DNA of 64,000 bases from Paragemmobacter ruber (GTDB lineage: Bacteria > Pseudomonadota > Alphaproteobacteria > Rhodobacterales > Rhodobacteraceae), in contig NZ_JAAATW010000002.1 in NCBI RefSeq assembly GCF_009908315.1, positions 744,001-808,000 on the forward strand. Direction: 5' to 3'. Positions 38,264 through 51,496 of the stretch are shown here, one piece after another (the stretch's first letter is position 1; the number at the start of each line of letters is the position of its first letter). The translations under genes were made by a program, and so were the position numbers. The notes under the pieces were generated by a model. It had not been told where the DNA came from and made no database searches. It saw nothing but the letters and a program-made list of their open reading frames with translations.

Positions 38264-39337
38264 TCAGCGCGGATCGGTGACCGCGCCGCCATTGGCGCGG
38301 TTCCAGCGGATCGACGACCAGAGCGACAGGCCGATCAGGGCCGCGCCGCCGAGGCCGGTGATCACCTCGGGGATATGCACCAGCGTCTGGCTGAACATGA
38401 TCACCGACAGGATCAGGATGGCGTAGAAAGCCCCGTGTTCGAGGTAGCGGTACTGCGCCAGCGTGCCCTTTTCGACCAGCATGATGGTCATCGAACGCAC
38501 ATACATGGCCCCAATGCCAAGGCCGATGGCAATGACGAAGAGGTTGTTCGACAAGGCAAAAGCGCCGATCACCCCGTCAAAGGAGAAGGAGGCATCCAGC
38601 ACCTCGAGGTAGAGGAAGGCGCCGAGGCCGCCCTTGGCGGCGGCGGACATGGTTTCCTGGCTCTTGTCCAGCAACCCGCCCACGGTTTCCACCACGAGGA
38701 AGGTGACAAGGCCGTAGATGGCGGAGGAGACGAAGGCCGTCGATTCCGCGCCGTCGAGGAACTTGGAGAAGACGAGGATCAGGATCAGCACGACCCCAAC
38801 CTCGATCCCCCGGATGGTGGCGGTGGCCGCCACCTTTTCCTCAAGCCAGCGCACCCAGTGCACGTCCTTTTCGGCGTCGAAGAAATAGGTCAGCCCCACC
38901 ATCATCAGGAAGGCGCCGCCGAAGGCCGCGATGGGAAGATGCGCCTCGTGCATGATGCGCGAATATTCCTCGGGCTGGGTGGAGGCGAGGACCAGCGCCT
39001 GCCACGGGCCGATATTGGCGGCCACCACCACGATCAGGAGCGGGAAGACGATGCGCATCCCGAAGACCGCGATCAGGATGCCCCAGGTCAGGAAGGCGCG
39101 CTGCCATTCGGGGCGCATGTCCTTGAGTTTGTTGGCATTCACGATGGCGTTGTCGAAGGAGAGCGAGATTTCGAGCACCGCGAGGACGCAGCAGATGAAG
39201 AAGATGGACAGCATGCCCGACAGCGTGCCGGTGGTCTGCCAGCCGAGCCACGCGCCCAGGGCGAGGCCCGCGGCCGTGACGATGAAGGCCCAGGTGAAAT
39301 ACCCGAGCGTCGATTTCGAAGCAGTGGTGGAGGACAT
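38264..39337 (-). CDS. DUF475 family membrane protein (TerC-like)
   Basis: Integral membrane protein of 357 residues with about nine helices. The acidic motifs EISLSFDNAIVNAN (near 56-69) and EVLDASFSFDGVIGAFAL (near 244-261) form two related halves, as in TerC/YkoY proteins that are linked to metal or tellurite resistance. DUF475 itself has no settled function. The start at 39337 has a modest GGGATCG ribosome site. Confidence 0.83.
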   Translation of the reverse strand: MSSTTASKSTLGYFTWAFIVTAAGLALGAWLGWQTTGTLSGMLSIFFICCVLAVLEISLSFDNAIVNANKLKDMRPEWQRAFLTWGILIAVFGMRIVFPLLIVVVAANIGPWQALVLASTQPEEYSRIMHEAHLPIAAFGGAFLMMVGLTYFFDAEKDVHWVRWLEEKVAATATIRGIEVGVVLILILVFSKFLDGAESTAFVSSAIYGLVTFLVVETVGGLLDKSQETMSAAAKGGLGAFLYLEVLDASFSFDGVIGAFALSNNLFVIAIGLGIGAMYVRSMTIMLVEKGTLAQYRYLEHGAFYAILILSVIMFSQTLVHIPEVITGLGGAALIGLSLWSSIRWNRANGGAVTDPR

Positions 39338-39869
39338 TGGGACGATCCCTTGCCTGGGGCGGGCCGGTGGCAGACGGAAGGACGCGCGGCGCGAAGGGGC
39401 GTCGTGGAGGTCGGTCGGTCGGTCAGGTCCGTGCGACGGTTGATTTCCGCGGTGCCGACATCGCGGAAGCGTCGCAAGACTTCCGCCAGAGGGGCCCGGT
39501 CACCAGGGTTTGGCCACCGGATCGGACCGACGGCTGCCCGCGTTCATACGGGTTCGGCCCCCAAAATCAAATCTTTTCTTGGCCCCGCGGCCAAGCCCTT
39601 GCGGACGCTGGATTAATCGGTGCAGCGCGGTGGCGGCGGATGTGCCGGAACCGGTGCAGGACCGCGTGCAGCAAGGCGTATGCACGCGCGCGGTGAAAAG
39701 GGCGCATTAACCATTCGCGCGCAAGCCTTGAGTCGCATGGCCAGGCGGGTATCTGGACTTATGGCGATGGGGCCTCTGGCCCTATCTGTGCCGCCGCTGG
39801 TAAGGGATGATGCAACGGATCGCCCCCGCCTTTGCCGGGGCTTGCCGCATTTTAGGAAAGGACGCGCCC
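39338..39869. other. 532-bp divergent region between the DUF475 gene and tpa
   Basis: No convincing gene. The left part carries the DUF475 leader. The right part holds GCGTGCAGCA (39664), TTAACCATT (39707) and the direct repeats CTGGACTTA/CTGGCCCTA (39753, 39776), an order shared with the region upstream of xsc. Confidence 0.7.
39753..39784 (+). promoter_or_regulatory. TauR-type direct repeat upstream of tpa
   Basis: CTGGACTTA and CTGGCCCTA are spaced 23 bp start to start. The same two words with the same spacing occur before xsc. TauR of R. capsulatus is known to bind direct repeats in the tpa promoter, so this is the natural candidate site. It ends 85 bp before the tpa ATG. Confidence 0.72.
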
Positions 39870-41252
39870 ATGGAAGGGTTGGACCGGTTCAACGACATTT
39901 CCGAAGTGGTCGAGGCCGACCGCGCCCATGTCTGGCACCACCTGAGCCAGCACAAGCAGTACGATACCGGCGTCGATCCCCGCGTGATCGTCGAAGGCAA
40001 GGGGATGAAGGTCTGGGATGCCAAGGGGAAAGAGCATCTTGATGCCGTCTCGGGCGGGGTCTGGACGGTAAATGTGGGCTATGGCCGCGAGAGCATCGCC
40101 AATGCGGTGCGCGACCAGCTGATCAAGATGAACTATTTCGCGGGCGCCGCAGGATCGGTGCCGGGGTCGATCTTTGCCCAGCGGCTGATCGAGAAGATGC
40201 CGGGGATGAGCCGGGTCTATTATTCCAACTCGGGGTCGGAGGCGAACGAGAAGGTCTACAAGATGGTGCGCCAGATCGCGCATCGGCACCATGGCGGCAA
40301 GAAGTGGAAGATCCTGTATCGCGACCGCGACTATCACGGCACGACCATCGCGGCGCTGGCCAGCGCCGGGCAGGACCAGCGGGCGATGCAGTACGGGCCC
40401 TTCCCAGATGGCTTCGTGCGGGTGCCGCATTGCCTGGAATATCGCAAGCAGTGGGATGTGGAGAATTATGGCGAGCGCGCGGCGGATGCGATCGAAGAGG
40501 TGATCCTGCGCGAGGGCCCGGATACGGTGGGCTGTCTGATCCTGGAACCCGTGACGGCGGGCGGTGGCGTGATCGTGCCGCCGAAAGGGTATTGGGAGCG
40601 GGTGCAGGAGATCTGCCGCAAATACGATATCCTGCTGGCGATTGACGAGGTGGTCTGCGGCGTGGGCCGGACGGGCACATGGTTCGGCTACCAGCATTAC
40701 GGCATCCAGCCTGATTTCGTGACCATGGCGAAGGGCGTGGCCTCGGGCTATGCCGCCATCTCCTGCACGGTGACGACGGAGCGGGTGTTCGAGATGTTCA
40801 AGGACAATCCCGCCGATCCGATGAGCTATTTCCGCGACATCTCGACCTTCGGGGGTTGCACCAGCGGGCCTGCGGCGGCGCTGGAGAACATGGCGATCAT
40901 CGAGCGCGAGGGGCTTCTCGAGAACACCGTGAAGATGGGCGATTACTGCCTGGGCAACCTGCAGGCGCTGATGGAGAAGCACAAGGTCATCGGCGATGTG
41001 CGCGGCAAGGGGCTGTTCCTTGGTGCGGAACTGGTGGCCGATCGCGCGACCAAGGAACCGGCGGATGAGAAGAAGGTGCAGGCGGTGGTGGCCGATTGCA
41101 TGGCGCAGGGCGTCATCATCGGGGCCACGAACCGTTCGTTGCCAGGGCTGAACAACACGCTGTGCCTGAGCCCTGCGCTGATCGCCACGAAGGATGACAT
41201 CGACCATATCACCGGGGCCATCGACGGCGCGCTGACCCGCGTCTTCGGCTGA
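39870..41252 (+). CDS. tpa: Taurine--pyruvate aminotransferase
   Basis: Class III aminotransferase (460 residues) turning taurine and pyruvate into sulfoacetaldehyde and alanine. The PLP lysine is K288 in FVTMAKGVASGY; the YYSNSGSEANE phosphate-binding region is near 117-127. It is adjacent to tauR and xsc, which fixes the substrate better than sequence alone. The ATG at 39870 follows AGGAAAGGA; an ATG at 39807 would add 21 residues and lacks a ribosome site. Confidence 0.92.
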   Translation: MEGLDRFNDISEVVEADRAHVWHHLSQHKQYDTGVDPRVIVEGKGMKVWDAKGKEHLDAVSGGVWTVNVGYGRESIANAVRDQLIKMNYFAGAAGSVPGSIFAQRLIEKMPGMSRVYYSNSGSEANEKVYKMVRQIAHRHHGGKKWKILYRDRDYHGTTIAALASAGQDQRAMQYGPFPDGFVRVPHCLEYRKQWDVENYGERAADAIEEVILREGPDTVGCLILEPVTAGGGVIVPPKGYWERVQEICRKYDILLAIDEVVCGVGRTGTWFGYQHYGIQPDFVTMAKGVASGYAAISCTVTTERVFEMFKDNPADPMSYFRDISTFGGCTSGPAAALENMAIIEREGLLENTVKMGDYCLGNLQALMEKHKVIGDVRGKGLFLGAELVADRATKEPADEKKVQAVVADCMAQGVIIGATNRSLPGLNNTLCLSPALIATKDDIDHITGAIDGALTRVFG

Positions 41253-41278
41253 TTTTCCCCGACCGTCAAGGTTCATGC

Positions 41279-41305
41279 GCGCGGCCCCTGAAGAAGGGGC
41301 CGCGC
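41279..41305 (+). terminator. Terminator of tpa
   Basis: An 11-bp stem GCGCGGCCCCT/AGGGGCCGCGC around a five-base loop, followed by ATTCCTTTT, 26 bp after the tpa stop. Confidence 0.75.
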
Positions 41306-41356
41306 ATTCCTTTTGGCTCGCCTGCGCGCCTGCGCGCTCCGGCTTGAGGTTTCTTT

Positions 41357-41410
41357 GGGTATTTGGGCCAAGATGAAGGGTGTGGTCTTCATCTTGGGAA
41401 AAACACCCTC
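41357..41410. repeat. Inverted pair of dispersed elements between tpa and tauR
   Basis: GGGTATTTGGGCCAAGATGAAG (from 41357) faces a second copy on the other strand (CTTCATCTTGGGAAAAACACCC, ending about 41408). They are about 10 bp apart and form a long inverted repeat. Copies also occur near 11850, 23980 and 30449, and a weak one near 43057. Confidence 0.65.
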
Positions 41411-41471
41411 AGGGGGAGGCCCGCAGGGCCGCGGGGGGCAGACAGCCCCCCAAGCGGCGGTGCGGCCGGGC

Positions 41472-41502
41472 TTGACGCCCGCAAGTGGGGCGCGCCTTAT
41501 AT
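41472..41502 (+). promoter_or_regulatory. Candidate promoter of tauR
   Basis: TTGACG (41472-41477) and CTTATA/TTATAT (41496-41502) with an 18-19 bp spacer, about 27 bp before the tauR ATG. No CTGGAC-type repeat is seen here, so tauR may not be controlled by its own product. Confidence 0.4.
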
Positions 41503-41528
41503 CCAGACGCAAGGGGAGATCGGTCCAG

Positions 41529-42989
41529 ATGGCGATACCGGTGGAGCGTTTCTATCTGGCGGAAGGGGTGAGCGGCACGTTGCAGCAGCGCATCCGGGCC
41601 ATGGTCGCCGATGGCATCCTGACGGGGCGGTTCCGGGCGGGGGAGAAGATGCCCTCTTCCCGGGGTCTGGCGCAGCATCTGGGGGTGAGCCGGATCACCG
41701 TGACGCTGGCCTATACGGAACTGGTGGCGGCGGATTACCTGACGGCGCGGGGGCGGTCGGGCTATTTCGTGTCCGAAGGCGTGCCGGTGCAGCCGGGGTT
41801 CCAGCCCGCGCCGCGGGCGGTGGGGACGGTGGATTGGGAGGCGCTGTGCGGGGGGCGGTTCTCGGCCATGGAGCGGGTGGAGCGGCCCGAGGATTGGCGG
41901 GCCTATCCCTATCCGTTCATCTATGGGCAGGCGGATCCGGCGCTGTTTGACCATCAGAACTGGCGGCTTTGCGCGCTGCAATCCTTGGGGCGGCGAGAGT
42001 TCGAAACGCTGACGGCGGATCGGTACGAGCGGGATGATCCGCTGCTGATCGAATATCTCTTGCGCAACATCCTGCCGCGGCGGGGGATCGAGGCGCGGCC
42101 ATCCGAGGTGCTGGTGACCATGGGGGCGCAGAATGCGCTGTGGCTGGCGGCGCAGGTTCTGTTGCGTGCGGGCCGCCATGCGGTGGTGGAAAATCCGGGC
42201 TATCCGGGGTTCCGGGCGATGTGCGCGCAGGCGGGGGCGCGGGTGACGCCGGTGGAGGTGGATGAGGGGGGGTTGGTGGTCGATGCGCTGCCCGAGGCGG
42301 TGGATGTCGTCTTCACCACGGCAAGCCATCAGAGCCCCACCAATGCCACCATGCCGGTGGCGCGGCGGACCGCGCTTCTGCGGGCGGCGGAGGAGCGGAA
42401 TTTCCTTGTGGTGGAGGACGATTACGAGTTCGAGATGAGTTACCTGACGCCCGTGTCGCCGTCGATCAAGAGCCTCGATTCCGGGGGGCGGGTGGTGCAT
42501 GCGGGATCGTTTTCGAAGTCGATCTTTCCGGGGTTGCGGCTGGGCTGGCTGGTGGGGCCGGAACCATTTATCCGCGAGGCGCGGGCGCTGCGCGCGCAGG
42601 TGTTGCGCCATCCGCCGGGACAGTTGCAGCGGACGGCGGCGCATTTTCTGTCGCTGGGGCATTACGATGCCTTGGTGAACCGGATGAAGGCGGCCTTTGC
42701 CAAGCGGCGCAGGGCGATGGAGGAAGCGATTTCCCAGCAGGGCCTGAGTGTTGCGGGGCAGGGGGGATTTGGCGGGTCGTCCTTCTGGATGGCGGCGACG
42801 CGGCATGTCGATACCGAGGCGCTGGCCTTGCGGCTGCGGCGGGAGGGGGTGCTGATCGAGCCGGGGCGGGTGTTCTTTCACCCCGGGACGGAGCGGCGGA
42901 ACTTCTATCGGCTGGCCTATTCGTCGATCCCGGTGGGCAAGATCGCCGAGGGGATCGGGTTGGTGGCGAAGGTCATGCGGGAGATGTGA
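41529..42989 (+). CDS. tauR: TauR, MocR-type regulator of taurine use
   Basis: MocR subfamily of GntR regulators, 486 residues. A winged helix-turn-helix lies at about 14-82 (SSRGLAQHLGVSRITVTLAYTEL), a linker follows, and an aminotransferase-like effector domain runs from about 115, with the PLP lysine K330 in AGSFSKSIFPGLR. R. capsulatus TauR activates tpa with taurine and binds direct repeats; the order tpa-tauR-xsc is the same here. The ATG at 41529 follows AAGGGGAG. A 16-bp tandem duplication copies its last codons and stop. Confidence 0.88.
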   Translation: MAIPVERFYLAEGVSGTLQQRIRAMVADGILTGRFRAGEKMPSSRGLAQHLGVSRITVTLAYTELVAADYLTARGRSGYFVSEGVPVQPGFQPAPRAVGTVDWEALCGGRFSAMERVERPEDWRAYPYPFIYGQADPALFDHQNWRLCALQSLGRREFETLTADRYERDDPLLIEYLLRNILPRRGIEARPSEVLVTMGAQNALWLAAQVLLRAGRHAVVENPGYPGFRAMCAQAGARVTPVEVDEGGLVVDALPEAVDVVFTTASHQSPTNATMPVARRTALLRAAEERNFLVVEDDYEFEMSYLTPVSPSIKSLDSGGRVVHAGSFSKSIFPGLRLGWLVGPEPFIREARALRAQVLRHPPGQLQRTAAHFLSLGHYDALVNRMKAAFAKRRRAMEEAISQQGLSVAGQGGFGGSSFWMAATRHVDTEALALRLRREGVLIEPGRVFFHPGTERRNFYRLAYSSIPVGKIAEGIGLVAKVMREM

Positions 42990-43008
42990 GGGGCGGGAGA
43001 TGTGAGGG
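42977..43008. repeat. 16-bp tandem duplication at the tauR stop codon
   Basis: GCGGGAGATGTGAGGG occurs twice in tandem (42977-42992 and 42993-43008). The first copy encodes the final REM-stop of TauR; the second is untranslated. Confidence 0.8.
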
Positions 43009-43386
43009 GGGGAAAGAAGGGGACGTTCCGTCCTCTCTTGGCCTGCGGCCAATTCACCCCTGGAGGATATTTGGGCAACGGGGAAGGCGGCAGGGTAAGG
43101 GCCTGCGGGCGCTGGGTTTATTCCTTTGCTTGCCGGTTCGTGGGGGGTTCCTGGGGGGGCCGTTTCGCGTGCCGCGACGCGTGCAGCAGAGGGTGCAGGC
43201 GCGCGATGGGGCAAGTGGGCGTTAACCATTTGGCGGGCGGGCGGGTCGGGGCGGATGTCCGGGGGTGGTTCGGGCATCTGGACTTAAGCGGCCCTGTTTT
43301 CTGGCCCTAAGCCGGGGGTGGGGGCGGGGGTAGAAGGAAGCGGAGAGCGCCCGCCGTGGCGCAGTGGATTGGACGGGAGAGACCCC
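42990..43386. other. 397-bp region between tauR and xsc
   Basis: No gene seen. It holds a degenerate dispersed element (GAGGATATTTGGGCAACGGGGAAG near 43063), GCGTGCAGCA (43179), TTAACCATT (43222) and the TauR-type repeats (43278-43309). It therefore carries an xsc promoter independent of tauR. Confidence 0.7.
43278..43309 (+). promoter_or_regulatory. TauR-type direct repeat upstream of xsc
   Basis: CTGGACTTA (43278) and CTGGCCCTA (43301) are 23 bp apart start to start, identical in sequence and spacing to the pair before tpa. It lies 77 bp before the xsc ATG. Co-activation of xsc and the genes behind it by TauR is inferred. Confidence 0.72.
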
Positions 43387-45162
43387 ATGCGGATGACGAC
43401 GGAAGAGGCCTTTGTGAAGGTGCTGCAGATGCATGGCATCGACAATGCCTTCGGGATCATCGGGTCGGCCTTCATGCCGATCTCGGATCTGTTCCCGCGG
43501 GCGGGGATCACCTTCTGGGACTGCGCGCATGAAGGATCGGGGGGCATGATGGCCGACGGGTTCACCCGCGCCAGTGGCCGGATGTGCATGATGATCGCGC
43601 AGAACGGGCCGGGCATCACGAATTTCGTGACGGCGGTGAAGACGGCCTATTGGAACCATACGCCGCTGCTGCTGGTGACGCCGCAGGCGGCGAACAAGAC
43701 CATCGGGATGGGCGGGTTCCAGGAAGTGGAGCAGATGGCGCTGTTCAAGGACATGGTCTGCTATCAGGAAGAGGTGCGCGATCCGTCGCGGGTGGCGGAG
43801 GTGTTGAACCGGGTCATCCTGAACGCGCGTCGCCATTCGGCGCCGGCGCAGATCAACATGCCGCGGGATTATTTCACGCAGGTGATTGATGTGGATCTGC
43901 CCGCGGTGGTGGAGTTCGAGCGGCCCGCGGGCGGCGAGGCGGCGATGGCGGAGGCGGCGGCGCTGCTGTCATCCGCGAAGTTCCCGGTGATCCTGAACGG
44001 GGCGGGGGTGGTGATCGGGGGGGCGATCCCGGCGTCGATGGCGCTGGCGGAGCGGTTGTCGGCCCCGGTCTGCGTGGGGTATCAGCACAATGATGCCTTT
44101 CCGGGGAGCCATCCGCTGTTTGCGGGGCCTTTGGGGTATAATGGCAGCAAGGCCGGGATGGAGCTGATCTCCAAGGCTGATGTGGTGCTGGCGCTGGGGA
44201 CGCGGCTGAACCCGTTCTCCACCCTTCCGGGCTATGGGCTGGACTATTGGCCCAAGGAGGCCAAGATCATCCAGGTGGATATCAACCCCGCGCGGATCGG
44301 GCTGACGAAGCGGGTCACGGTGGGCATCGTGGGGGATGCCAAGAAGGTGGCGGAGGGGATTTTGGCGCGGCTGTCGGCGAGGGCCGGGGAGGCGGGGCGG
44401 CAGGCGCGGCTGGACCTGATCGCCACGACCAAGAGCCGCTGGGCGCAGCAATTGGCCAGCATGGACCATGAGGAGGACGATCCAGGCACGACCTGGAATG
44501 AGCGGGCACGGGCGGCCAAGCCCGACTGGATGAGCCCGCGCATGGCCTGGCGCGCGATCCAGTCGGCGCTGCCGAAGGAGGCGATCATTTCGTCCGATAT
44601 CGGGAACAACTGCGCGATCGGCAATGCCTATCCGACCTTTGAGGCAGGGCGGAAATATCTGGCGCCCGGCCTTTTCGGGCCTTGCGGCTATGGCCTGCCG
44701 TCGATTGTCGGCGCGAAGATCGCCTGCCCGGATGTGCCGGTGGTGGGGTTCGCAGGCGACGGGGCGTTTGGCATCGCGGTGACGGAACTGACGGCCATCG
44801 GGCGGCCGGAATGGCCTGCGGTGACGATGGTGGTGTTCCGCAATTACCAATGGGGCGCGGAGAAGCGGAATTCGACCCTATGGTATGACGACAATTTCGT
44901 GGGCACCGAGCTGGATATGCAGGTGAGCTATGCCGGGATCGCGCGGGCCTGCGGGTTGCAGGGCGTGCAGGCCCGGACAATGGAGGAGTTGCGGGACGCG
45001 CTGGCCAAGGCGGTTGAGGATCAGATGACCCACGGCAAGACCACGCTGATCGAGGCGCTGATCAATCAGGAACTGGGCGAGCCGTTCCGGCGCGATGCGA
45101 TGAAGAAGCCGGTCGCGGTGGCGGGGATCACACGCGCGGATATGCGCCCGCAGGCCGTTTGA
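43387..45162 (+). CDS. xsc: Sulfoacetaldehyde acetyltransferase
   Basis: Thiamine-diphosphate enzyme (591 residues) cleaving sulfoacetaldehyde with phosphate into acetyl phosphate and sulfite. It has the three-domain acetolactate-synthase-like layout with the ThDP motif GDGAFGIAVTELTAIGRPEWPAVTMVVFRN near 456-485. The length fits known Xsc proteins. The ATG at 43387 has GGGAGAG upstream; an ATG two codons later is possible. The stop shares its last base with the next start. Confidence 0.93.
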   Translation: MRMTTEEAFVKVLQMHGIDNAFGIIGSAFMPISDLFPRAGITFWDCAHEGSGGMMADGFTRASGRMCMMIAQNGPGITNFVTAVKTAYWNHTPLLLVTPQAANKTIGMGGFQEVEQMALFKDMVCYQEEVRDPSRVAEVLNRVILNARRHSAPAQINMPRDYFTQVIDVDLPAVVEFERPAGGEAAMAEAAALLSSAKFPVILNGAGVVIGGAIPASMALAERLSAPVCVGYQHNDAFPGSHPLFAGPLGYNGSKAGMELISKADVVLALGTRLNPFSTLPGYGLDYWPKEAKIIQVDINPARIGLTKRVTVGIVGDAKKVAEGILARLSARAGEAGRQARLDLIATTKSRWAQQLASMDHEEDDPGTTWNERARAAKPDWMSPRMAWRAIQSALPKEAIISSDIGNNCAIGNAYPTFEAGRKYLAPGLFGPCGYGLPSIVGAKIACPDVPVVGFAGDGAFGIAVTELTAIGRPEWPAVTMVVFRNYQWGAEKRNSTLWYDDNFVGTELDMQVSYAGIARACGLQGVQARTMEELRDALAKAVEDQMTHGKTTLIEALINQELGEPFRRDAMKKPVAVAGITRADMRPQAV

Positions 45163-45902
45163 TGCCCTTTGATCTGTCCCTTGTGGGGACAGTCTGGATG
45201 GGGGTGGCGGTGCTGGTTGCCGCCTTCATCCGGGGCTATTCGGGCTTTGGCTATTCGGCCATGGTGATTGCCGCGTCGTCGCTGGTGATGAACCCGCTTC
45301 ATATGGTGGCGGTGGTGGTGATCCTTGAGACCGCGATGAGCGTGCAGGCGGCGCGGGGTGTGTCGGCGGATGTGGATTGGCGGCGGGTGGGGCTGTTGCT
45401 GGCGGGGGCGGCGGTGGGCTTGCCGCTGGGCCTGTGGGCGCTGACCGGGATATCGGAGGATGCGGCGCGGGCGGTGATATCGGCCTATGTGTTGGGCATG
45501 TGTCTGGTGCTGTGGGCAGGCTGGCGGATGGCGCGCGAGGCGGGTGGCGGGGCCACGCTGGCGGCAGGGCTGGTGAGCGGCCTTGCAAATGCGCCGGGGA
45601 TGGGGGGGCTGCCGGTGGCGGCCTTCTTTGCCGCGCAGCCGATGCGGGCGGCGGTGTTCCGGGCGACGCTGATTGCCTATTTTCCCCTGTTGGACCTGTA
45701 TTCGGCGCCGCTGTACTGGTGGGCGGGGCTGGTGACGTGGGACACGCTTTGGGCGTCGCTGATTGCGCTGCCTTTGACGTTCCTGGGCAATTGGCTGGGA
45801 AGTCGGCATTTCCTGAACACCGATCCGCAGGATTTCCGCCGCTTTGCCATCCTTCTGTTGGCGGGGCTGGCGGGGATGGGGTTGGTGAAGGCGGTGATGT
45901 GA
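45162..45902 (+). CDS. TSUP family permease, probable sulfite exporter
   Basis: Membrane protein of 246 residues with about eight helices, TauE/SafE (TSUP) family. Two half-repeats are visible; the first has AAFIRGYSGFGYSAMVIAASSLVM (near 21-44) and the second LVSGLANAPGMGGLPVAAFF (near 138-157). Its position between xsc and ackA suggests export of sulfite released by Xsc, or of its oxidation product; comparable genes in taurine clusters are called tauE or tauZ. The ATG at 45162 overlaps the xsc stop. Confidence 0.82.
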   Translation: MPFDLSLVGTVWMGVAVLVAAFIRGYSGFGYSAMVIAASSLVMNPLHMVAVVVILETAMSVQAARGVSADVDWRRVGLLLAGAAVGLPLGLWALTGISEDAARAVISAYVLGMCLVLWAGWRMAREAGGGATLAAGLVSGLANAPGMGGLPVAAFFAAQPMRAAVFRATLIAYFPLLDLYSAPLYWWAGLVTWDTLWASLIALPLTFLGNWLGSRHFLNTDPQDFRRFAILLLAGLAGMGLVKAVM

Positions 45903-47053
45903 TGGCGGTGCTGGTCGTCAATGCGGGGTCTTCGTCGCTGAAGGTGGCGGTGTTTGACGAGGGTTTGCGCGAGGTGCTGGCGGGCCGGGTGACCGAGATC
46001 GGCGGGGCAGCGCGGGTGGAGATCGGGCCGTTGCAGGGGGCGCGGGTGGTGCCTGACCATGCCGCCGCGCTGGCGCTGTGCTTTGAGGGGATGGAGGAGG
46101 CGGGGATTGCCGTGGCATCGCTGCGGGCGGCGGCGCATCGGGTGGTGCATGGGGGGGCGGGGCTGGTGGCGCCCTGCCGGGTGACGGAGGGCGTTGTCGC
46201 GGCGGTGGAGGCCTGCGTGCCGCTGGCGCCCCTGCACAATCCGGCCAACCTGACGGGGATCCGGGCGGTGGCCGCGCTGGTGCCGGACCTGCCGCAATAT
46301 GCGAGTTTCGACACGGCCTTTCATGGCAGCGTGCCGGAGGTGGCGGCGCGCTATGCGATCCCGGCGGAGGCTGAGGCGCTGGGCCTGCGGCGGTATGGGT
46401 TTCACGGGATCAGTTACGCGTCAGTTGTTCGAAAAGTGCAAGAAATGGCATCTGGATCGGTGCCTGAGCGGATGCTTGTGTTCCATTTGGGAAACGGTGC
46501 ATCGGCCTGTGGGATCGTTCAGGGGCGGTCGGTGGCGACGACGATGGGCTATTCGCCGCTGGATGGGCTGACCATGGGGACGCGAGCGGGGGCGATTGAT
46601 GGCAATGCTGTTCTGAGACTGGCCGAGGTGCATGGCATCGACGGCGCGGCGCGCATCCTGAACCGCGAGAGCGGGCTTTTGGGGCTGGGCGGGGCGTCGG
46701 ACATGCGCGCGCTGCAGCGGGCGGGGACAGAGGCGGCGCGGTTTGCGGTGGCGCATTTCTGCTATTGGGCGGTGCGGCATGGCGGATCGCTTGCGGCGGC
46801 GATGGGCGGGGTGGATGCGGTCTGCTTTACCGGCGGGATCGGTGAGAATGACGCAAGGGTGCGTGCGGAAATCCTGCGGGGACTTGGCTTTCTGGGGGTA
46901 GGGTTCGACGAGGCGGCGAATATGGCCGGGGCGGGGGTGCTGCATCCGGCAGGGGCGGATGTCGCTGTCTGGATAGTCGCGGCAGAGGAAGAGCGGCAGA
47001 TTGCGATGGAGGCCATGCAGGTGATGGCGTCCGAGCGGATGGGGAAGGCGTGA
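45902..47053 (+). CDS. ackA: Acetate kinase
   Basis: Enzyme of 383 residues making acetate and ATP from acetyl phosphate. It has LVVNAGSSSLK at the N-terminus, the phosphate-binding FHLGNGASAC near 199-208, and FTGGIGEND near 313. Next to xsc it would use the acetyl phosphate from sulfoacetaldehyde. In many taurine degraders a phosphotransacetylase (pta) stands here instead; no pta is in the window. Start and stop overlap both neighbours. Confidence 0.93.
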   Translation: MAVLVVNAGSSSLKVAVFDEGLREVLAGRVTEIGGAARVEIGPLQGARVVPDHAAALALCFEGMEEAGIAVASLRAAAHRVVHGGAGLVAPCRVTEGVVAAVEACVPLAPLHNPANLTGIRAVAALVPDLPQYASFDTAFHGSVPEVAARYAIPAEAEALGLRRYGFHGISYASVVRKVQEMASGSVPERMLVFHLGNGASACGIVQGRSVATTMGYSPLDGLTMGTRAGAIDGNAVLRLAEVHGIDGAARILNRESGLLGLGGASDMRALQRAGTEAARFAVAHFCYWAVRHGGSLAAAMGGVDAVCFTGGIGENDARVRAEILRGLGFLGVGFDEAANMAGAGVLHPAGADVAVWIVAAEEERQIAMEAMQVMASERMGKA

Positions 47054-49824
47054 TGGGACAGCCGAAGGTCGAGACATCGCCGAAGGTGTCGGATGAGGTG
47101 CGCAAGACCACCTGCTACATGTGCGCCTGCCGCTGCGGGATCAATGTGCATCTGACGAGCGGGAAGGTCACCTATATCGAGGGCAACCGTGACCATCCGG
47201 TGAACAAGGGGGTGCTGTGCGCCAAGGGGGCGAGCGGCATCATGCAGGTGACGGCGCCGAGCCGGTTGCGCGCGCCCTTGCGGCGGGTGGGGCCGCGGGG
47301 ATCGGGGGCGTTCGAGGAGATTTCCTGGGACGAGGCGCTGGCGACGGCGGTGGCGTGGTTGAAGCCGCTGCGGGAGGAGGCGCCCGAGAAGCTGGCCTTC
47401 TTCACGGGGCGGGATCAATCGCAGTCCTTCACGGGATGGTGGGCGCAGCAATTCGGCACGCCCAATTATGCCGCGCATGGGGGGTTCTGTTCCGTCAACA
47501 TGGCGGCGGCGGGGACTTACACGATTGGCGGGGCGTTCTGGGAGTTCGGGCAGCCGGATTGGGCGCATACGAAGCTTTTCGTGCTGTTTGGCGTGGCGGA
47601 GGATCATGACAGCAACCCGATCAAGATCGGGATCGGCAAGCTGAAGGCGCGGGGGGCGAAGGTCGTGGGCGTGAACCCGGTGCGGACCGGGTATAATGCG
47701 GTGGCCGACGAATGGGTGGGGATCACGCCGGGGACGGATGGGTTGTTGATCCTGTCCTTGATCCATTGCCTGCTGGAGGCGGGGAAGATTGATCTGGATT
47801 ACCTCGCCCGCTGGACCAATGCGCCCTTGCTGGTGAATGCGGCGGAAGGGCCGGAGAAGGGGCTGATCCTCAAGAATGCGGAAAGCCAGCCCTTTGTCAT
47901 CGACAAGCGGACGGGGATGCCCGCGCCGTGGGACGGGGCGGGGGTGCAGCCGGATCTGGGGGCGGTGTGGCAGGGGCATCGGACGGTGTTCCAGCATATG
48001 GCCGAGCGCTATCTGAGCGCGGATTATGCGCCGGAGGCGGTGGCGGATCGCTGTGGCGTGCCTGCGGGGCGCATCCGGGCGCTGGCGGCGGAACTGGCGC
48101 GGGTGGCCTTTGACGAGGCCTTTGAACTCCCCGTGGCGTGGACGGATTTCCGGGGGGACCGGCATGAGAGCATGACCGGGCGGCCGGTGAGTTTCCATGC
48201 GATGCGGGGGATTTCGGCCCATTCAAACGGGTTCCAGACCGCGCGCGCGCTGCATCTGTTGCAGATCCTGTTGGGAACGGTGGAGGTGCCGGGGGGCTAT
48301 CGGCTGAAGCCGCCTTACCCAAAGCCCGTGGAGGCGCATCCCACGCCGCATTTCGTGGCGGCGCCGGGCAAGCCCCTGAGCGGGCCTCACCTCGGCTATG
48401 TGCGGGGGCCGGAGAACCTGGCGATCAAGGAGGACGGGACGCCCTGGCGGATCGACAAGGGGTTCACCTGGGAGAACCCGTTCTCGGCGCATGGGTTGAT
48501 GCATATGGTCATCCCCAATGCCCATGCGGGCGATCCCTACAAGGTGGATACGCTGTTTCTGTACATGGCGAACATGTCGTGGAATTCGTCGATGAATTCG
48601 GCCCGCGTCATGGAGATGCTGACGGACAAGGATGCGAGCGGGGAGTATGTCATCCCACGCATCATCTATTCTGATGCCTATGCGTCCGAGATGGTGGCCT
48701 ATGCCGATCTGATCCTACCGGATACGACCTATCTGGAGCGGTATGATTGCATCAGCCTGCTGGACCGCCCGATATCCGAGCCGGATGCGGCGGGCGATGC
48801 GATCCGCTGGCCGGTGGTGGAGGCGGATCGCGATGTGCGGGGGTTCCAGTCGGTGCTGCTGGATCTTGGGGTCAGGTTGGGCCTGCCGGGGATTACGAAC
48901 CCGGATGGAACGGCGAAGTTCAAGGATTACGCCGATTACATGGTGAACCATATCCGGCGGCCCGGTGTGGGGCCGCTGATCGGGTTCCGGGGCGTGGATG
49001 GGCAGGCCGAGGGGCGGGGTGATCCGAACCCCGACCAGCTTGCGCGCTATATCGAGAATGGCGGGTTCTATCAGGCGCATGTGCCGGACGGCGCGGCCTA
49101 TATGAAGCCCTGGAACATGGCCTATCAGGAGTGGGCGGTGGCGACGTCCTTCTACGAGACGCCGCAACCCTATCTGTTTTCCATCTGGTCCGAGCCGATG
49201 CGGAAGTTCCAGCTGGCCGCCGAGGGGCATGGCTTCCTGCAACCGCCCGACCATCTGCGCGCGCGGTTGAAGGTCGCGATGGACCCTCTGCCGGTCTGGT
49301 ATCCGCCCTTTGGGGAGGCGGCGGCGGAGGGCTATCCGGTGCATGCGATCACGCAGCGGCCGATGGCGATGTATCACAGCTGGGGGTCGCAGAATGCCTG
49401 GCTGCGGCAGATCCACGGGAAGAACTATCTCTACCTGCCGACGAAGATCTGGGAGGCGGAGGGGTTTGCGGAAGGCGATTATGCGCGGGTGACATCCCCC
49501 ACGGGCGAGATCGTGGTGCCTGTGGCGCATATGGCGGCGCTGAACCCCGATACGGTCTGGACCTGGAACGCGATCGGCAAGCGGCGGGGGGCCTGGGCGC
49601 TGGATGCGGGCGCGCCGGAGGCCAATCAGGGGTTTTTGCTGAACCATCTGATTTCGGAGCTGCTGCCGGGCGAGGGACGGGTGTCGAATTCAGATCCCGT
49701 GACCGGGCAGGCGGCGTGGTTCGACCTGCGGGTGCGGGTGGAGCGGGTCGGGCCGCAGGAGCGGGCGGAGCCCGCTTTTGAGGTGCTGCCGCGTGTGGTG
49801 CCGAAGGGGAGGGCGCGGGTGTGA
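47053..49824 (+). CDS. soeA: Sulfite dehydrogenase SoeA, molybdopterin subunit
   Basis: Molybdopterin oxidoreductase of the DMSO-reductase superfamily (923 residues). The 4Fe-4S site is C21-x2-C24-x3-C28-x27-C56. C146 in HGGFCSVNM is the likely molybdenum ligand. No twin-arginine signal is present, so the protein is cytoplasmic. This, the soeABC order, and the placement behind xsc point to the cytoplasmic sulfite-oxidising enzyme SoeABC first shown in Allochromatium and known in taurine-degrading roseobacters. Formate dehydrogenase or polysulfide reductase would be the alternatives. The ATG at 47053 overlaps the ackA stop. Confidence 0.85.
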   Translation: MGQPKVETSPKVSDEVRKTTCYMCACRCGINVHLTSGKVTYIEGNRDHPVNKGVLCAKGASGIMQVTAPSRLRAPLRRVGPRGSGAFEEISWDEALATAVAWLKPLREEAPEKLAFFTGRDQSQSFTGWWAQQFGTPNYAAHGGFCSVNMAAAGTYTIGGAFWEFGQPDWAHTKLFVLFGVAEDHDSNPIKIGIGKLKARGAKVVGVNPVRTGYNAVADEWVGITPGTDGLLILSLIHCLLEAGKIDLDYLARWTNAPLLVNAAEGPEKGLILKNAESQPFVIDKRTGMPAPWDGAGVQPDLGAVWQGHRTVFQHMAERYLSADYAPEAVADRCGVPAGRIRALAAELARVAFDEAFELPVAWTDFRGDRHESMTGRPVSFHAMRGISAHSNGFQTARALHLLQILLGTVEVPGGYRLKPPYPKPVEAHPTPHFVAAPGKPLSGPHLGYVRGPENLAIKEDGTPWRIDKGFTWENPFSAHGLMHMVIPNAHAGDPYKVDTLFLYMANMSWNSSMNSARVMEMLTDKDASGEYVIPRIIYSDAYASEMVAYADLILPDTTYLERYDCISLLDRPISEPDAAGDAIRWPVVEADRDVRGFQSVLLDLGVRLGLPGITNPDGTAKFKDYADYMVNHIRRPGVGPLIGFRGVDGQAEGRGDPNPDQLARYIENGGFYQAHVPDGAAYMKPWNMAYQEWAVATSFYETPQPYLFSIWSEPMRKFQLAAEGHGFLQPPDHLRARLKVAMDPLPVWYPPFGEAAAEGYPVHAITQRPMAMYHSWGSQNAWLRQIHGKNYLYLPTKIWEAEGFAEGDYARVTSPTGEIVVPVAHMAALNPDTVWTWNAIGKRRGAWALDAGAPEANQGFLLNHLISELLPGEGRVSNSDPVTGQAAWFDLRVRVERVGPQERAEPAFEVLPRVVPKGRARV

Positions 49825-49836
49825 GGGGGGAAAGAC

Positions 49837-49856
49837 AAAATTCTTCGAAGAATTTT
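49837..49856. repeat. Perfect 20-bp palindrome in the soeA-soeB gap
   Basis: AAAATTCTTC followed directly by its reverse complement. It is AT-rich in a very GC-rich setting and is followed one base later by a second palindrome. As RNA it gives a hairpin with no natural loop, ending in UUUU, which resembles an intrinsic terminator. Confidence 0.85.
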
Positions 49857-49857
49857 G

Positions 49858-49879
49858 CAAATCTTTTCGAAAAGATTTG
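49858..49879. repeat. Perfect 22-bp palindrome ahead of soeB
   Basis: CAAATCTTTTC followed by its reverse complement. Its right end (GATTTGGAGG) runs into the soeB ribosome site, so folding of this stem could limit ribosome access. Confidence 0.85.
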
Positions 49880-49891
49880 GAGGGGCCTGCG

Positions 49892-50629
49892 ATGACCGGG
49901 TTGCCGGAGCGGACGGAGAAGAAGCTGGGTCTGGTCATCGACCTGGATACTTGTGTCGGCTGTCATGCCTGCGTCACGGCCTGCAAGGGGTGGAATGACC
50001 AGGGCTATGGCGCGCCCCTGTCGGATCAGAACCCTTACGGCGCCGATCCTTCGGGAACCTTCCTCAACCGCGTGCACAGCTATGCGGTGCAACCCACGGA
50101 CACTGCGGCACAAATCATCAACTTTCCGCGGTCCTGCCTGCATTGCGAGGATGCCCCTTGCGTGACCGTCTGCCCGACGGGGGCAAGCTACAAGCGGGCC
50201 GAGGATGGGATCGTTCTGGTGAACGAGGCGGCCTGCATCGGCTGTGGCCTTTGTGCCTGGGCCTGCCCTTACGGCGCGCGGGAGCTGGATCAGGCGGCGG
50301 GGGTGATGAAGAAATGCACGCTCTGCGTGGATCGCATCTATAACGAGGCGTTGCCGGAGGCGGACCGCGAACCCGCCTGCGTGCGCACCTGCCCCACGGG
50401 GGCGCGGCATTTCGGGGATTTTGCCGACCCCGAGAGCAAGGTCAGCCGGTTGACGGCAGAGCGAGAGGGGTTCGCGCTGATGCCCGAGATGGGAACGCGG
50501 CCCGTGAACCGCTATCTGCCGCCGCGCAAGAAGGACCGGCCGGAGGAGGCATCGCTGCTGGCGCCGCTCCTTGATATCAAGGCCACGGGGCTGGCGGGGT
50601 GGCTGGACCGGGTTCTGGGGAAGATCTGA
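49892..50629 (+). CDS. soeB: Sulfite dehydrogenase SoeB, iron-sulfur subunit
   Basis: Electron-transfer subunit (245 residues) with four ferredoxin-type cysteine groups: C21-x2-C-x2-C-x3-C (CVGCHACVTACK), CLHCEDAPCVTVCP, CIGCGLCAWACP, and CTLC with ACVRTCP. These carry four 4Fe-4S clusters from SoeA to the membrane. The ATG at 49892 follows TTGGAGGGG. It abuts soeC (stop 50629, start 50630). Confidence 0.87.
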   Translation: MTGLPERTEKKLGLVIDLDTCVGCHACVTACKGWNDQGYGAPLSDQNPYGADPSGTFLNRVHSYAVQPTDTAAQIINFPRSCLHCEDAPCVTVCPTGASYKRAEDGIVLVNEAACIGCGLCAWACPYGARELDQAAGVMKKCTLCVDRIYNEALPEADREPACVRTCPTGARHFGDFADPESKVSRLTAEREGFALMPEMGTRPVNRYLPPRKKDRPEEASLLAPLLDIKATGLAGWLDRVLGKI

Positions 50630-51496
50630 ATGAATCCTGCGCCTTCCGTGATTGTCTTCACCGTCCTGTCGGGGATGGGCTTTGGGTTTCTGGCGCTGCT
50701 CGGCCTGACTGGCGTTTCGGGGACGGTGGCGTTCTTTCTGTGGGGCTTGGGCTATGGGCTGGCGGTGGCGGGGCTGGTGGCATCGGCCTTTCACTTGGGC
50801 AATCCGCAGCGGGCGCTGCTGGCGTTCACGCAGTGGCGGACGAGCTGGCTGTCGCGGGAGGCCTGGGCTTCGGTGATCACGCTGGGGCTGTTTGCGCCGC
50901 AGGCGCTGTCGGATTGGCTTGGCCTTGGGCTGGGGCGGGGGTTCGGCGTGGCGGGGGCGGTGATGGCCGGGGTGACGGTGTTCTGCACGGCGATGATCTA
51001 TGCCCAGATCCGGGCGGTGCCGCGCTGGCATCACTGGACGGTGCCGCCCGTCTTTCTGGCCTATGCGGTGGCGGGGGGATTGGTGCTGTCGGGCGTCAGC
51101 GTGCTGGCCCTGCCGATGCTGTGCGTGCTGGGGGTGACGCTGGCGCTGCACTGGCATTTCGGGGCGCGGGCCTTTGCGCGGGCGGGCGCGACGATGGAAA
51201 GCGCGACAGGCCTTGGCCGGGTGGGGGCGGTATCGGTGTTCGAGCAGCCGCATACGGGGGGGAACTACCTGCTGCGCGAGATGATCCATGTGGTGGGGCG
51301 CAGGCATGCCGAACGGGTGCGGATGATCGCCATGGTGTTTTCGGTGTTGCTGCCATCGCTGGCGCTGGCCTGGCTGTCGGGCGGGGTGGCGGTGGTCGTG
51401 GCGGCGGCGACGTATCTGATCGGGGCCTTGGCGCAGCGCTGGCTGTTCTTTGCCGAGGCCGAGCATGTGGTGGGGCTGTATTACGGGCGGCGCTAG
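50630..51496 (+). CDS. soeC: Sulfite dehydrogenase SoeC, membrane anchor
   Basis: Integral membrane protein of 288 residues with about eight helices, DmsC/NrfD-like anchor family, expected to pass electrons to quinone. Conserved features are ASAFHLGNPQRALLAFTQWRTSWLSREAW (near 47-75) and GGNYLLREMIHVVGRRHA. It is the third gene of soeABC. Confidence 0.86.
   Translation: MNPAPSVIVFTVLSGMGFGFLALLGLTGVSGTVAFFLWGLGYGLAVAGLVASAFHLGNPQRALLAFTQWRTSWLSREAWASVITLGLFAPQALSDWLGLGLGRGFGVAGAVMAGVTVFCTAMIYAQIRAVPRWHHWTVPPVFLAYAVAGGLVLSGVSVLALPMLCVLGVTLALHWHFGARAFARAGATMESATGLGRVGAVSVFEQPHTGGNYLLREMIHVVGRRHAERVRMIAMVFSVLLPSLALAWLSGGVAVVVAAATYLIGALAQRWLFFAEAEHVVGLYYGRR

Follow-up and report, generated by a model that had tools for sequence, protein, structure and literature searches.

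REP/BIME repeats, with their Y1 transposases, and MITEs are short, dispersed, non-coding elements that often lie between convergent genes, and RIME and similar mosaic elements are modular intergenic repeats of rhizobia (Alphaproteobacteria). KOPS, a motif polar toward dif, is a single octamer, GGGNAGGG (PMC13342612). PMC6180460 gives TTAACCAT as an ungapped variant of the CtrA motif, and PMC5320631 gives the operator consensus of Rhodobacter capsulatus TauR as a direct repeat of CTGGACYTAA. Here we describe a dispersed repeat in Paragemmobacter ruber and compare it with each of these systems; among open-licence PMC papers, we found nothing relevant to this element.

We analyzed a 64,000-nucleotide window of the P. 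ruber genome (contig NZ_JAAATW010000002.1, positions 744,001 to 808,000), in which tpa, tauR and xsc follow one another on the forward strand. tpa (39870..41252) encodes an aminotransferase, by context probably taurine:pyruvate aminotransferase; the name rests on gene order and aminotransferase models, none of the 25 model matches listed exceeding its cut-off. The next gene (41529..42989) encodes a predicted MocR-type regulator, putatively TauR from its gene order and its score against the PdxR model (319.1 bits; cut-off 320), whereas xsc (43387..45162), encoding sulfoacetaldehyde acetyltransferase, scored well above the cut-off of TIGR03457 (925.3 vs. 676.4 bits). Upstream of tpa (39753..39784) and xsc (43278..43309), on the same strand, stands the direct repeat CTGGACTTA-N14-CTGGCCCTA, located where the first-pass annotation had placed it. 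It matches the R. capsulatus consensus in PMC5320631, and by its sequence this inner pair is the already known TauR-type operator. Allowing up to two mismatches, the box was found in the genome only at the tpa and xsc sites (backward control: 3 matches). With a relaxed pattern, two CTGGACYTAA-like half-sites were present upstream of xsc in 18/18 and of tpa in 19/19 regions of the genus.

Farther upstream of both genes lie outer blocks whose letters and spacings had been reported exactly: GCGTGCAGCA at 39664 and 43179, TTAACCATT 43 bp on at 39707 and 43222, and a distance from TTAACCATT to the direct repeat of 46 bp at tpa and 56 bp at xsc. The sharing of blocks between the two regions goes beyond chance. 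Counted genome-wide, TTAACCATT occurs 7 times in 3,955,066 bases (vs. 5 for the pattern read backwards), and GTGCAGN7TGCA has 97 matches in the P. ruber genome vs. 4 for its reversed pattern. The genome carries a dispersed element of ~100 bp in about 60 copies, mostly between genes. Its parts are a head (CTTGCGGACGCTGGRTTWAY), an array with units of 12 nt and a tail (GTTAACC), the last present in about half of the copies. The outer blocks at tpa and xsc are probably parts of this intergenic element, a repeat resembling the REP/MITE class: they correspond to the array and the right end in two of its copies.

Both copies lie on the forward strand. At tpa, the head (CAAGCCCTTGCGGACGCTGGATTAAT, 39592..39617) is a block that recurs at xsc, in other copies and in other genera. 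The array (39642..39689) is made of GTGCCG, GTGCAG, GTGCAG and GTATGCAC units spaced 12 nt apart, contains the GCGTGCAGCA at 39664 and was matched by our model R1 (C2:783661-783714, E 7.4e-10). The tail (ATTAACCATT, 39706..39715) lies 100 bp from the CGCTGG of the head and is followed by a GAGTC (GANTC) block at 39730..39734. The xsc copy has its head at 43097..43121, its array of GTGCCG, GTGCAG and GTGCAG at 43169..43207 (containing the GCGTGCAGCA at 43179; R1 match C2:787169-787229, E 4.8e-11) and its tail (GTTAACCATT) at 43221..43230, 111 bp from the CGCTGG; its GAGTC block is degenerate. The head and GAGTC blocks had escaped the first-pass annotation. Both copies belong to the training set of R1, which was built from 13 own-genome copies, making own-genome scores partly a matter of construction. 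R1 gave 80 matches at E≤1 in the P. ruber genome; we studied the 62 at E<0.02 and left out 18 weaker ones.

The ends of the element are regularly spaced. Using a loose pattern on 102 copies from P. ruber and the genus genomes G011 and G018, we found 28 that fitted both ends, 26 of them with a head-to-tail distance of 100–101 bp, and 98–101 bp was also seen in copies with different units. Head-like motifs elsewhere in the same 102 loci had such a tail in 0/2 cases. A tail was recognizable in 30/62 own, 16/20 G011 and 13/20 G018 copies, a head more rarely. By eye, the ends resemble inverted repeats (GGNTTAAC / GTTAACC). GANTC, presumably a CcrM site in this position, lies 10–40 nt behind the tail in 15/30 own and 11/16 G011 tailed copies, vs. 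~0.02 expected for each, and in just 2/11 tailed G018 copies.

The first-pass annotation had proposed a second, taurine-specific factor that would sit on the outer blocks and touch TauR on the same DNA face. We rejected a second factor shared by tpa and xsc as the main reading, given the genome-wide counts and eight element-free genomes, and the model as a whole is improbable. The supposed promoter architecture comprises two of ~60 dispersed copies, only 9/58 of which lie between divergent genes, and the copies elsewhere lack an intact TauR box. Nor is the 43-bp spacing a trait of tpa and xsc: it belongs to the family, with the same array-to-TTAACCAT length at unrelated loci. In alignment A3, measured from the penultimate unit to TTAACCAT, the length is 61 nt at tpa and xsc and also at three unrelated loci; at four other loci, 67–81 nt run from that unit to the end of the aligned stretch. 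The outer blocks are distinct from the TauR operator, as had been claimed, but taurine control has no general need of a second factor, because 8/19 genus genomes have TauR boxes and no element copy within 600 bp (one of them, G009, has tpa and no close xsc). The same blocks do recur near tpa or xsc in 11/11 genomes with the repeat family, a retention that speaks for the model, vs. 0/8 without it. However, several of these genomes carry the element at just one of the two genes (xsc in G003, G007, G010, G011 and G016; tpa in G001), and the xsc copy of G004 sits 180 bp away from its TauR box. We also rejected a recent duplication of one upstream region: the two align poorly outside the blocks, and both copies occur in several other species.

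One part of that model has modest support. Across lineages, the spacing between tail and TauR box takes values of 34–36, 44–46 and 56 bp, with an outlier of 59 bp, stepping by about one helical turn. With lineages collapsed by hand into seven states that are not fully independent, the Rayleigh p was ~0.004 at 10.5 bp (range 0.003–0.012). These ~10-bp steps hint at a local function, against a purely passive repeat. At tpa and xsc, the element lies upstream of a TauR operator that is itself ordinary, and would at most tune it. The one-turn steps may persist because tail and operator are occupied from the same face of the helix.

An element with 12-nt units could instead encode a structured RNA or a small peptide. 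The period is divisible by three and, by eye, several copies have the TAA of their tail in the same frame as the units, but 13-nt units among the 12-nt ones break the reading frame, and we rejected peptide coding. For a structured RNA, mean folding z-scores were only −0.35 to −0.8 on either strand (62, 20 and 20 copies), and no Rfam match fell on the element in seven loci at E≤1; this candidate was likewise rejected. An RNA or peptide product is thus very improbable. The same Rfam search returned one terC RNA and two hits under gathering scores, all off the element.

We then compared the copies across species. Thirty copy pairs occupy shared positions between species; 17 share both flanking genes and none has swapped sides. 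Array similarity between G000 and G018 was 0.529 for orthologous vs. 0.515 for non-orthologous pairs, compared with 0.807 within G018; it was 0.688 within G011. Own-genome arrays were as similar to those of G011 (0.593) as to each other (0.592), and concerted change is therefore unclear for P. ruber. For G018 and G011, concerted change of the core is clear. One copy, at C6:6028, is followed at 45 bp from the tail by a decayed TauR-like box (CTGGACCTA-N14-CTGG; one locus, seen by eye), and its orthologues in G011 (L270) and G018 (L283) have no such box there. This difference suggests copying between loci.

At E≤1e-7, R1 had zero matches outside P. ruber in 150 genomes of the bacterial family, and none in the congener G018, a result that misleads because the units differ in other genera. 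In 10/246 genomes there was a match to the end-to-end pattern CGCTGNRTTWAN{84,94}RTTAACC (reversed control: 5 matches), and arrays were present in five of the ten (G000, G018, G089, G187 and G220). The match in G106 falls between genes and shows no obvious array; those in G052, G204, G205 and G251 lie inside genes and were taken as chance. In other genera, the same end frame surrounds different, 11-nt units, and GANTC lies 15–16 nt behind GTTAACC in 7/8 copies with that tail. Of 21 loci with CGTCTT pairs in G089, G263 and G264, eight end in a tail of the GTTAACC type and four fall within genes. Within the genus, 8/19 genomes have no family copy at the threshold used. In 15 loci of family-free genomes (xsc in 7/8 genomes, tpa in 8/8; a few kb each), no array of this kind was found; the scan lists unrelated hexamer triplets, many plainly coding. 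On a poorly resolved tree of 17 genomes (4/14 inner branches well supported), the presence of the family needs 1–2 changes.

Copies show a preference for convergent gene pairs, their commonest setting. In P. ruber, 25/58 copies lie in convergent gene pairs vs. 15/112 background gaps (p 4e-5), and 2/62 were called inside genes. The corresponding figures for G011 are 8/19 vs. 15/174 (p 4e-4); in G018, counted without background, 9/20 copies are convergent. All copies examined face positive local GC skew (62/62 own, 20/20 G011 and 20/20 G018; 102/102 in total), whereas genes in the same loci run both ways (106 with the skew and 113 against it, 43 and 30, and 32 and 37, respectively). Against the nearest 20-kb skew sample, 7/53 G011 copies were at odds. 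Negative skew is faced by 4/4 copies in G220, 1/1 in G106 and, slightly, in G187; in Tabrizicola-type loci, skew is weak and mixed. Polarity along positive skew thus holds for the copies examined in this genus, and its sign is not universal.

This polarity bears on a rival in which the copies are selected polar sites, with a putative lineage-specific protein on the array and a TTAACC/GANTC-reading factor on the ends. The ~60 sites would indicate the direction of replication, serving segregation, repair or the handling of fork–transcription conflicts between convergent genes, and the core would change as the specificity of the binding protein drifts. We regard this proposal as possible but rather unlikely. 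The uniform orientation, the conserved positions with lineage-specific cores, the end spacing kept whether units are 11 or 12 nt, and the GANTC behind many tails all fit it. The reversed skew in G220, the scarcity of GANTC in G018, the 32/62 own copies without a clear tail and the genus genomes without a copy do not. In a more novel form, which we consider unlikely, a Rhodobacteraceae family of polar sites would have conserved caps, ACGCTGGRTTWAY and, in the fullest form, GTTAACCATG-N6-GCGAATCG, held at a distance of ~100 bp by a tandem array specific to each species and co-evolving at dozens of fixed positions with a putative DNA-binding protein and reporting replication direction; the taurine genes would merely carry two sites.

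We favor the dispersed-repeat reading. Its copies would be homogenized through copying or gene conversion between loci, and selection or a replication-coupled (single-strand) mode of copying may set their orientation. A REP-type copying machinery was rejected: the Y1 transposase (PF01797) was over cut-off in 0/19 genus genomes, with one sub-cut-off match in G006. The fixed end-to-end length across genera and the stable positions exceed the needs of a passive repeat and count against this reading.

The claim about taurine promoters thereby becomes a general one, about a dispersed repeat family whose copies are fixed in place and whose cores are lineage-specific. Blocks common to two promoters need a genome-wide count before being called co-regulation. 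The element is also a good test case for the homogenization of bacterial intergenic repeats and for undiscovered polar chromosome sites.

Among known systems, the inner repeat shows no notable difference from the R. capsulatus TauR (MocR-type) operator, a direct repeat before taurine genes and beside tauR with the consensus CTGGACYTAA (PMC5320631); the outer blocks are no part of the TauR system. The TTAACCAT of the element equals, as letters alone, the ungapped CtrA variant in PMC6180460, but the sequences at 39707 and 43222 lack the full TTAA-N7-TTAA site, and few copies of the family lie in divergent gaps. With KOPS and other skewed polar motifs it shares an orientation tied to strand composition, although KOPS, as covered in PMC13342612, is a single octamer and the element forms ~60 arrays of ~100 bp. 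Like REP/BIME repeats and MITEs, it is multicopy and intergenic, favors convergent pairs and has ends that, by eye, look like inverted repeats; unlike them, it is built of tandem 11–12-nt units rather than a hairpin, keeps its ~100-bp end spacing across genera while the core differs, and has every examined copy oriented with GC skew, and unlike REP/BIME it has no Y1 (RAYT) transposase over cut-off in its genus. By description alone, it can be likened to the RIME-like rhizobial elements as a modular intergenic repeat in Alphaproteobacteria. The repeat is unusual in two respects: at the same places its middle varies by species, and all copies examined in the genus point one way relative to local strand composition.

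The taurine genes lie in the order TerC-like gene (minus strand), tpa, tauR and xsc. Re-reading the sequence upstream of tpa and xsc placed GCGTGCAGCA at 39664 and 43179, TTAACCATT at 39707 and 43222, and a TauR-type direct repeat at 39753-39784 and 43278-43309, so that every position in the first-pass annotation was correct. Alignment of the two regions revealed a further common upstream block, TGCGGRCGCTGGRTTWAT. The inner repeat, CTGGACTTA-N14-CTGGCCCTA, fits the R. capsulatus TauR consensus CTGGACYTAA as cited in the available text of PMC5320631, supporting its earlier reading as a TauR site, an already known kind of site. With a relaxed pattern, the box was present across the genus upstream of xsc in 18/18 genomes (G009 lacks a close xsc) and of tpa in 19/19; allowing ≤2 mismatches, the own-genome matches were the tpa and xsc sites only. 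Separately, a terC RNA (Rfam RF03067; 56.3 bits, gathering 39.9) lies on the minus strand at 39447-39507 (L006:1241-1301), upstream of the TerC-family gene at 38264-39337. Behind xsc, open frames at 45902-51496 resemble genes for acetate kinase, for a molybdopterin oxidoreductase and for ferredoxin and membrane subunits of the latter (called by eye, the oxidoreductase also by profile models), and fit ackA and bisC/dmsC/hybA, which are among the TauR regulon members named in the available text of PMC5320631.

The outer blocks had been taken as a promoter design particular to tpa and xsc; they are instead two copies, each beside a TauR operator, of a repeat that is dispersed over the genome, capped and polar, and whose core varies with the lineage. 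TTAACCATT occurs seven times in the 3,955,066 bases of the own genome, and among its five non-taurine sites L005 adjoins a clear GTGCAG array and L004 a single unit. GTGCAGN7TGCA gave 97 own-genome matches against 4 for the reversed pattern, many of them building arrays of 12-nt units. R1, a sequence-only model built from 13 own-genome copies, yielded 80 matches at E≤1; the 62 with E<0.02 were retained, and the other 18, weaker and in several cases second matches in the same array, were set aside. According to a home-made, purpose-trained gene finder, 25 of the 62 copies were convergent, 24 co-directional, 9 divergent and 2 inside genes, with one flank missing in 2. Background gaps were convergent in 15/112 cases (gaps ≥100 bp, the window plus 13 stretches of 20 kb; Fisher p 4e-5). 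The genus genome G011 had 8/19 convergent copies against 15/174 background gaps ≥60 bp, and G018, another genus genome lacking a background of its own, had 9/20.

Where both ends of the element are recognisable, their spacing is nearly constant. In the 28 copies with head and tail in a loose pattern (15 own, 10 G011 and 3 G018, out of 102 examined), the distance from CGCTG to GTTAA was 100-101 bp in 26, the exceptions being 88 and 111 bp. Taurine-gene copies spanned 99-102 bp in 14/15 regions with a head found; the window's xsc copy is the 111-bp case in both sets. Elsewhere in the 102 loci, two head-like motifs were found, neither with a tail. GANTC followed 10-40 nt behind the tail in 15/30 own, 11/16 G011 and 2/11 G018 tailed copies, where genome density (0.00064 per base) predicts about 0.02 each. 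A second subtype, seen at G000:C2:306511, C1:177865, C1:662806 and others, replaces the TTAACC-GANTC end with a GTGCATACAAATTTCGGCAG-like end, often then GGTTAAGGGTGCG...GCAC.

The array units are GTGCAGGAACGG/GTGCAGACGGGC in the own genome, GTGCAGCGCGTG/GTGCAGATGGCG/GTGCAGACGGCT in G011 and TGTGCCCTGTTT/TGTGCCGNNNTTT/TGTGCAGCAAA in G018. Flanking proteins (>55% identity) paired 30 copies at shared positions, 17 with both flanks and 0 with sides swapped. Array similarity of orthologous versus other cross pairs was 0.529 versus 0.515 (G000, the own genome, with G018), 0.542 versus 0.515 (G011-G018; 4 pairs) and 0.610 versus 0.602 (G000-G011). Within genomes it reached 0.807 in G018 and 0.688 in G011 (shuffled baseline 0.445), whereas own-genome copies scored 0.592 among themselves, no higher than their 0.593 against G011. 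Concerted core evolution is therefore clear in G018 and G011, but these similarities give no sign of it in the own genome. At C6:6028, where the copy is flanked by convergent transporter and enoyl-CoA hydratase genes, a decayed TauR-like box was seen by eye 45 bp beyond the tail; none was seen at the orthologous copies, L270 and L283. We read this single case as probable copying from an xsc-type locus.

Orientation is likewise ordered. On the single contig of G011, 22/28 copies below 2.6 Mb were on the plus strand and 22/25 above it on the minus strand. As a general rule, positive G-over-C skew would mark the leading strand. Over 3-kb surroundings, minus the element and 150 bp each side, skew was positive along the element in 62/62 own copies, 20/20 in G011 (best-scoring of 53 found, less the xsc copy and one other) and 20/20 in G018 (23 found). 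At these loci, the numbers of genes running with/against the element were 106/113, 43/30 and 32/37, respectively. Outside the genus, all four copies found in G220 (L301, L310, L314, L318), with TTGTGCATCAC units, showed negative skew, opposite to the window's genus.

R1 (E≤3e-6) detected the family in 11/19 genus genomes, some counted matches being taurine copies (1/2 in G004, 0/3 in G001). Each of the 11 has a copy beside at least one of xsc and tpa; in the other 8, no copy lies within 600 bp of the taurine boxes. Loci from other genera (Tabrizicola and relatives) show the same frame with 11-nt units, CGTCTTC or GTCTGG. Among 246 genomes, an end-to-end pattern found arrays in G220, G089 and G187, plus the own genome and G018. 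CGTCTTNNNNNCGTCTK matches versus control numbered 26 versus 4 in G089, 9 versus 1 in G263, 11 versus 2 in G264 and 3 versus 1 in the own genome. GTTAACC tails occurred in 8/21 loci examined from G089, G263 and G264, with GANTC 15-16 nt behind in 7/8; head-to-tail distance was 98-99 bp in the 6 tailed loci with a fitting head. The region behind tauR in Gemmobacter straminiformis contains an almost perfect array of 12-nt period, CGCCCCCGTCCG (L040:5499-5560).

The proposal that outer block and operator keep a helical phase found modest support. Tail-to-operator spacings were 56, 59, 45, 45, 44, 36, 36, 46 and 46 at xsc and 46, 46, 46, 35, 35 and 34 at tpa, in steps of about one turn with 59 as an outlier. 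Over seven lineage states, collapsed by our choice and sharing ancestry, Rayleigh p was 0.004 at 10.5 bp, 0.012 at 10 and 0.003 at 11; the G004 xsc copy, 180 bp from the intact box, lies outside this list. On this basis, phasing at the taurine genes is suggestive, and the element may have been co-opted there. At the G004 locus (L016), the stretch separating the displaced element from the intact box contains, by eye, a further TauR-like box in decayed form.

In our explanation, element copies would be homogenised by copying between loci; this step and the origin of polarity are what we infer. Y1 transposase, the hallmark of REP systems, was searched for and exceeded the cut-off in 0/19 genus genomes. 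'REP-like' describes the element by analogy with REP repeats.
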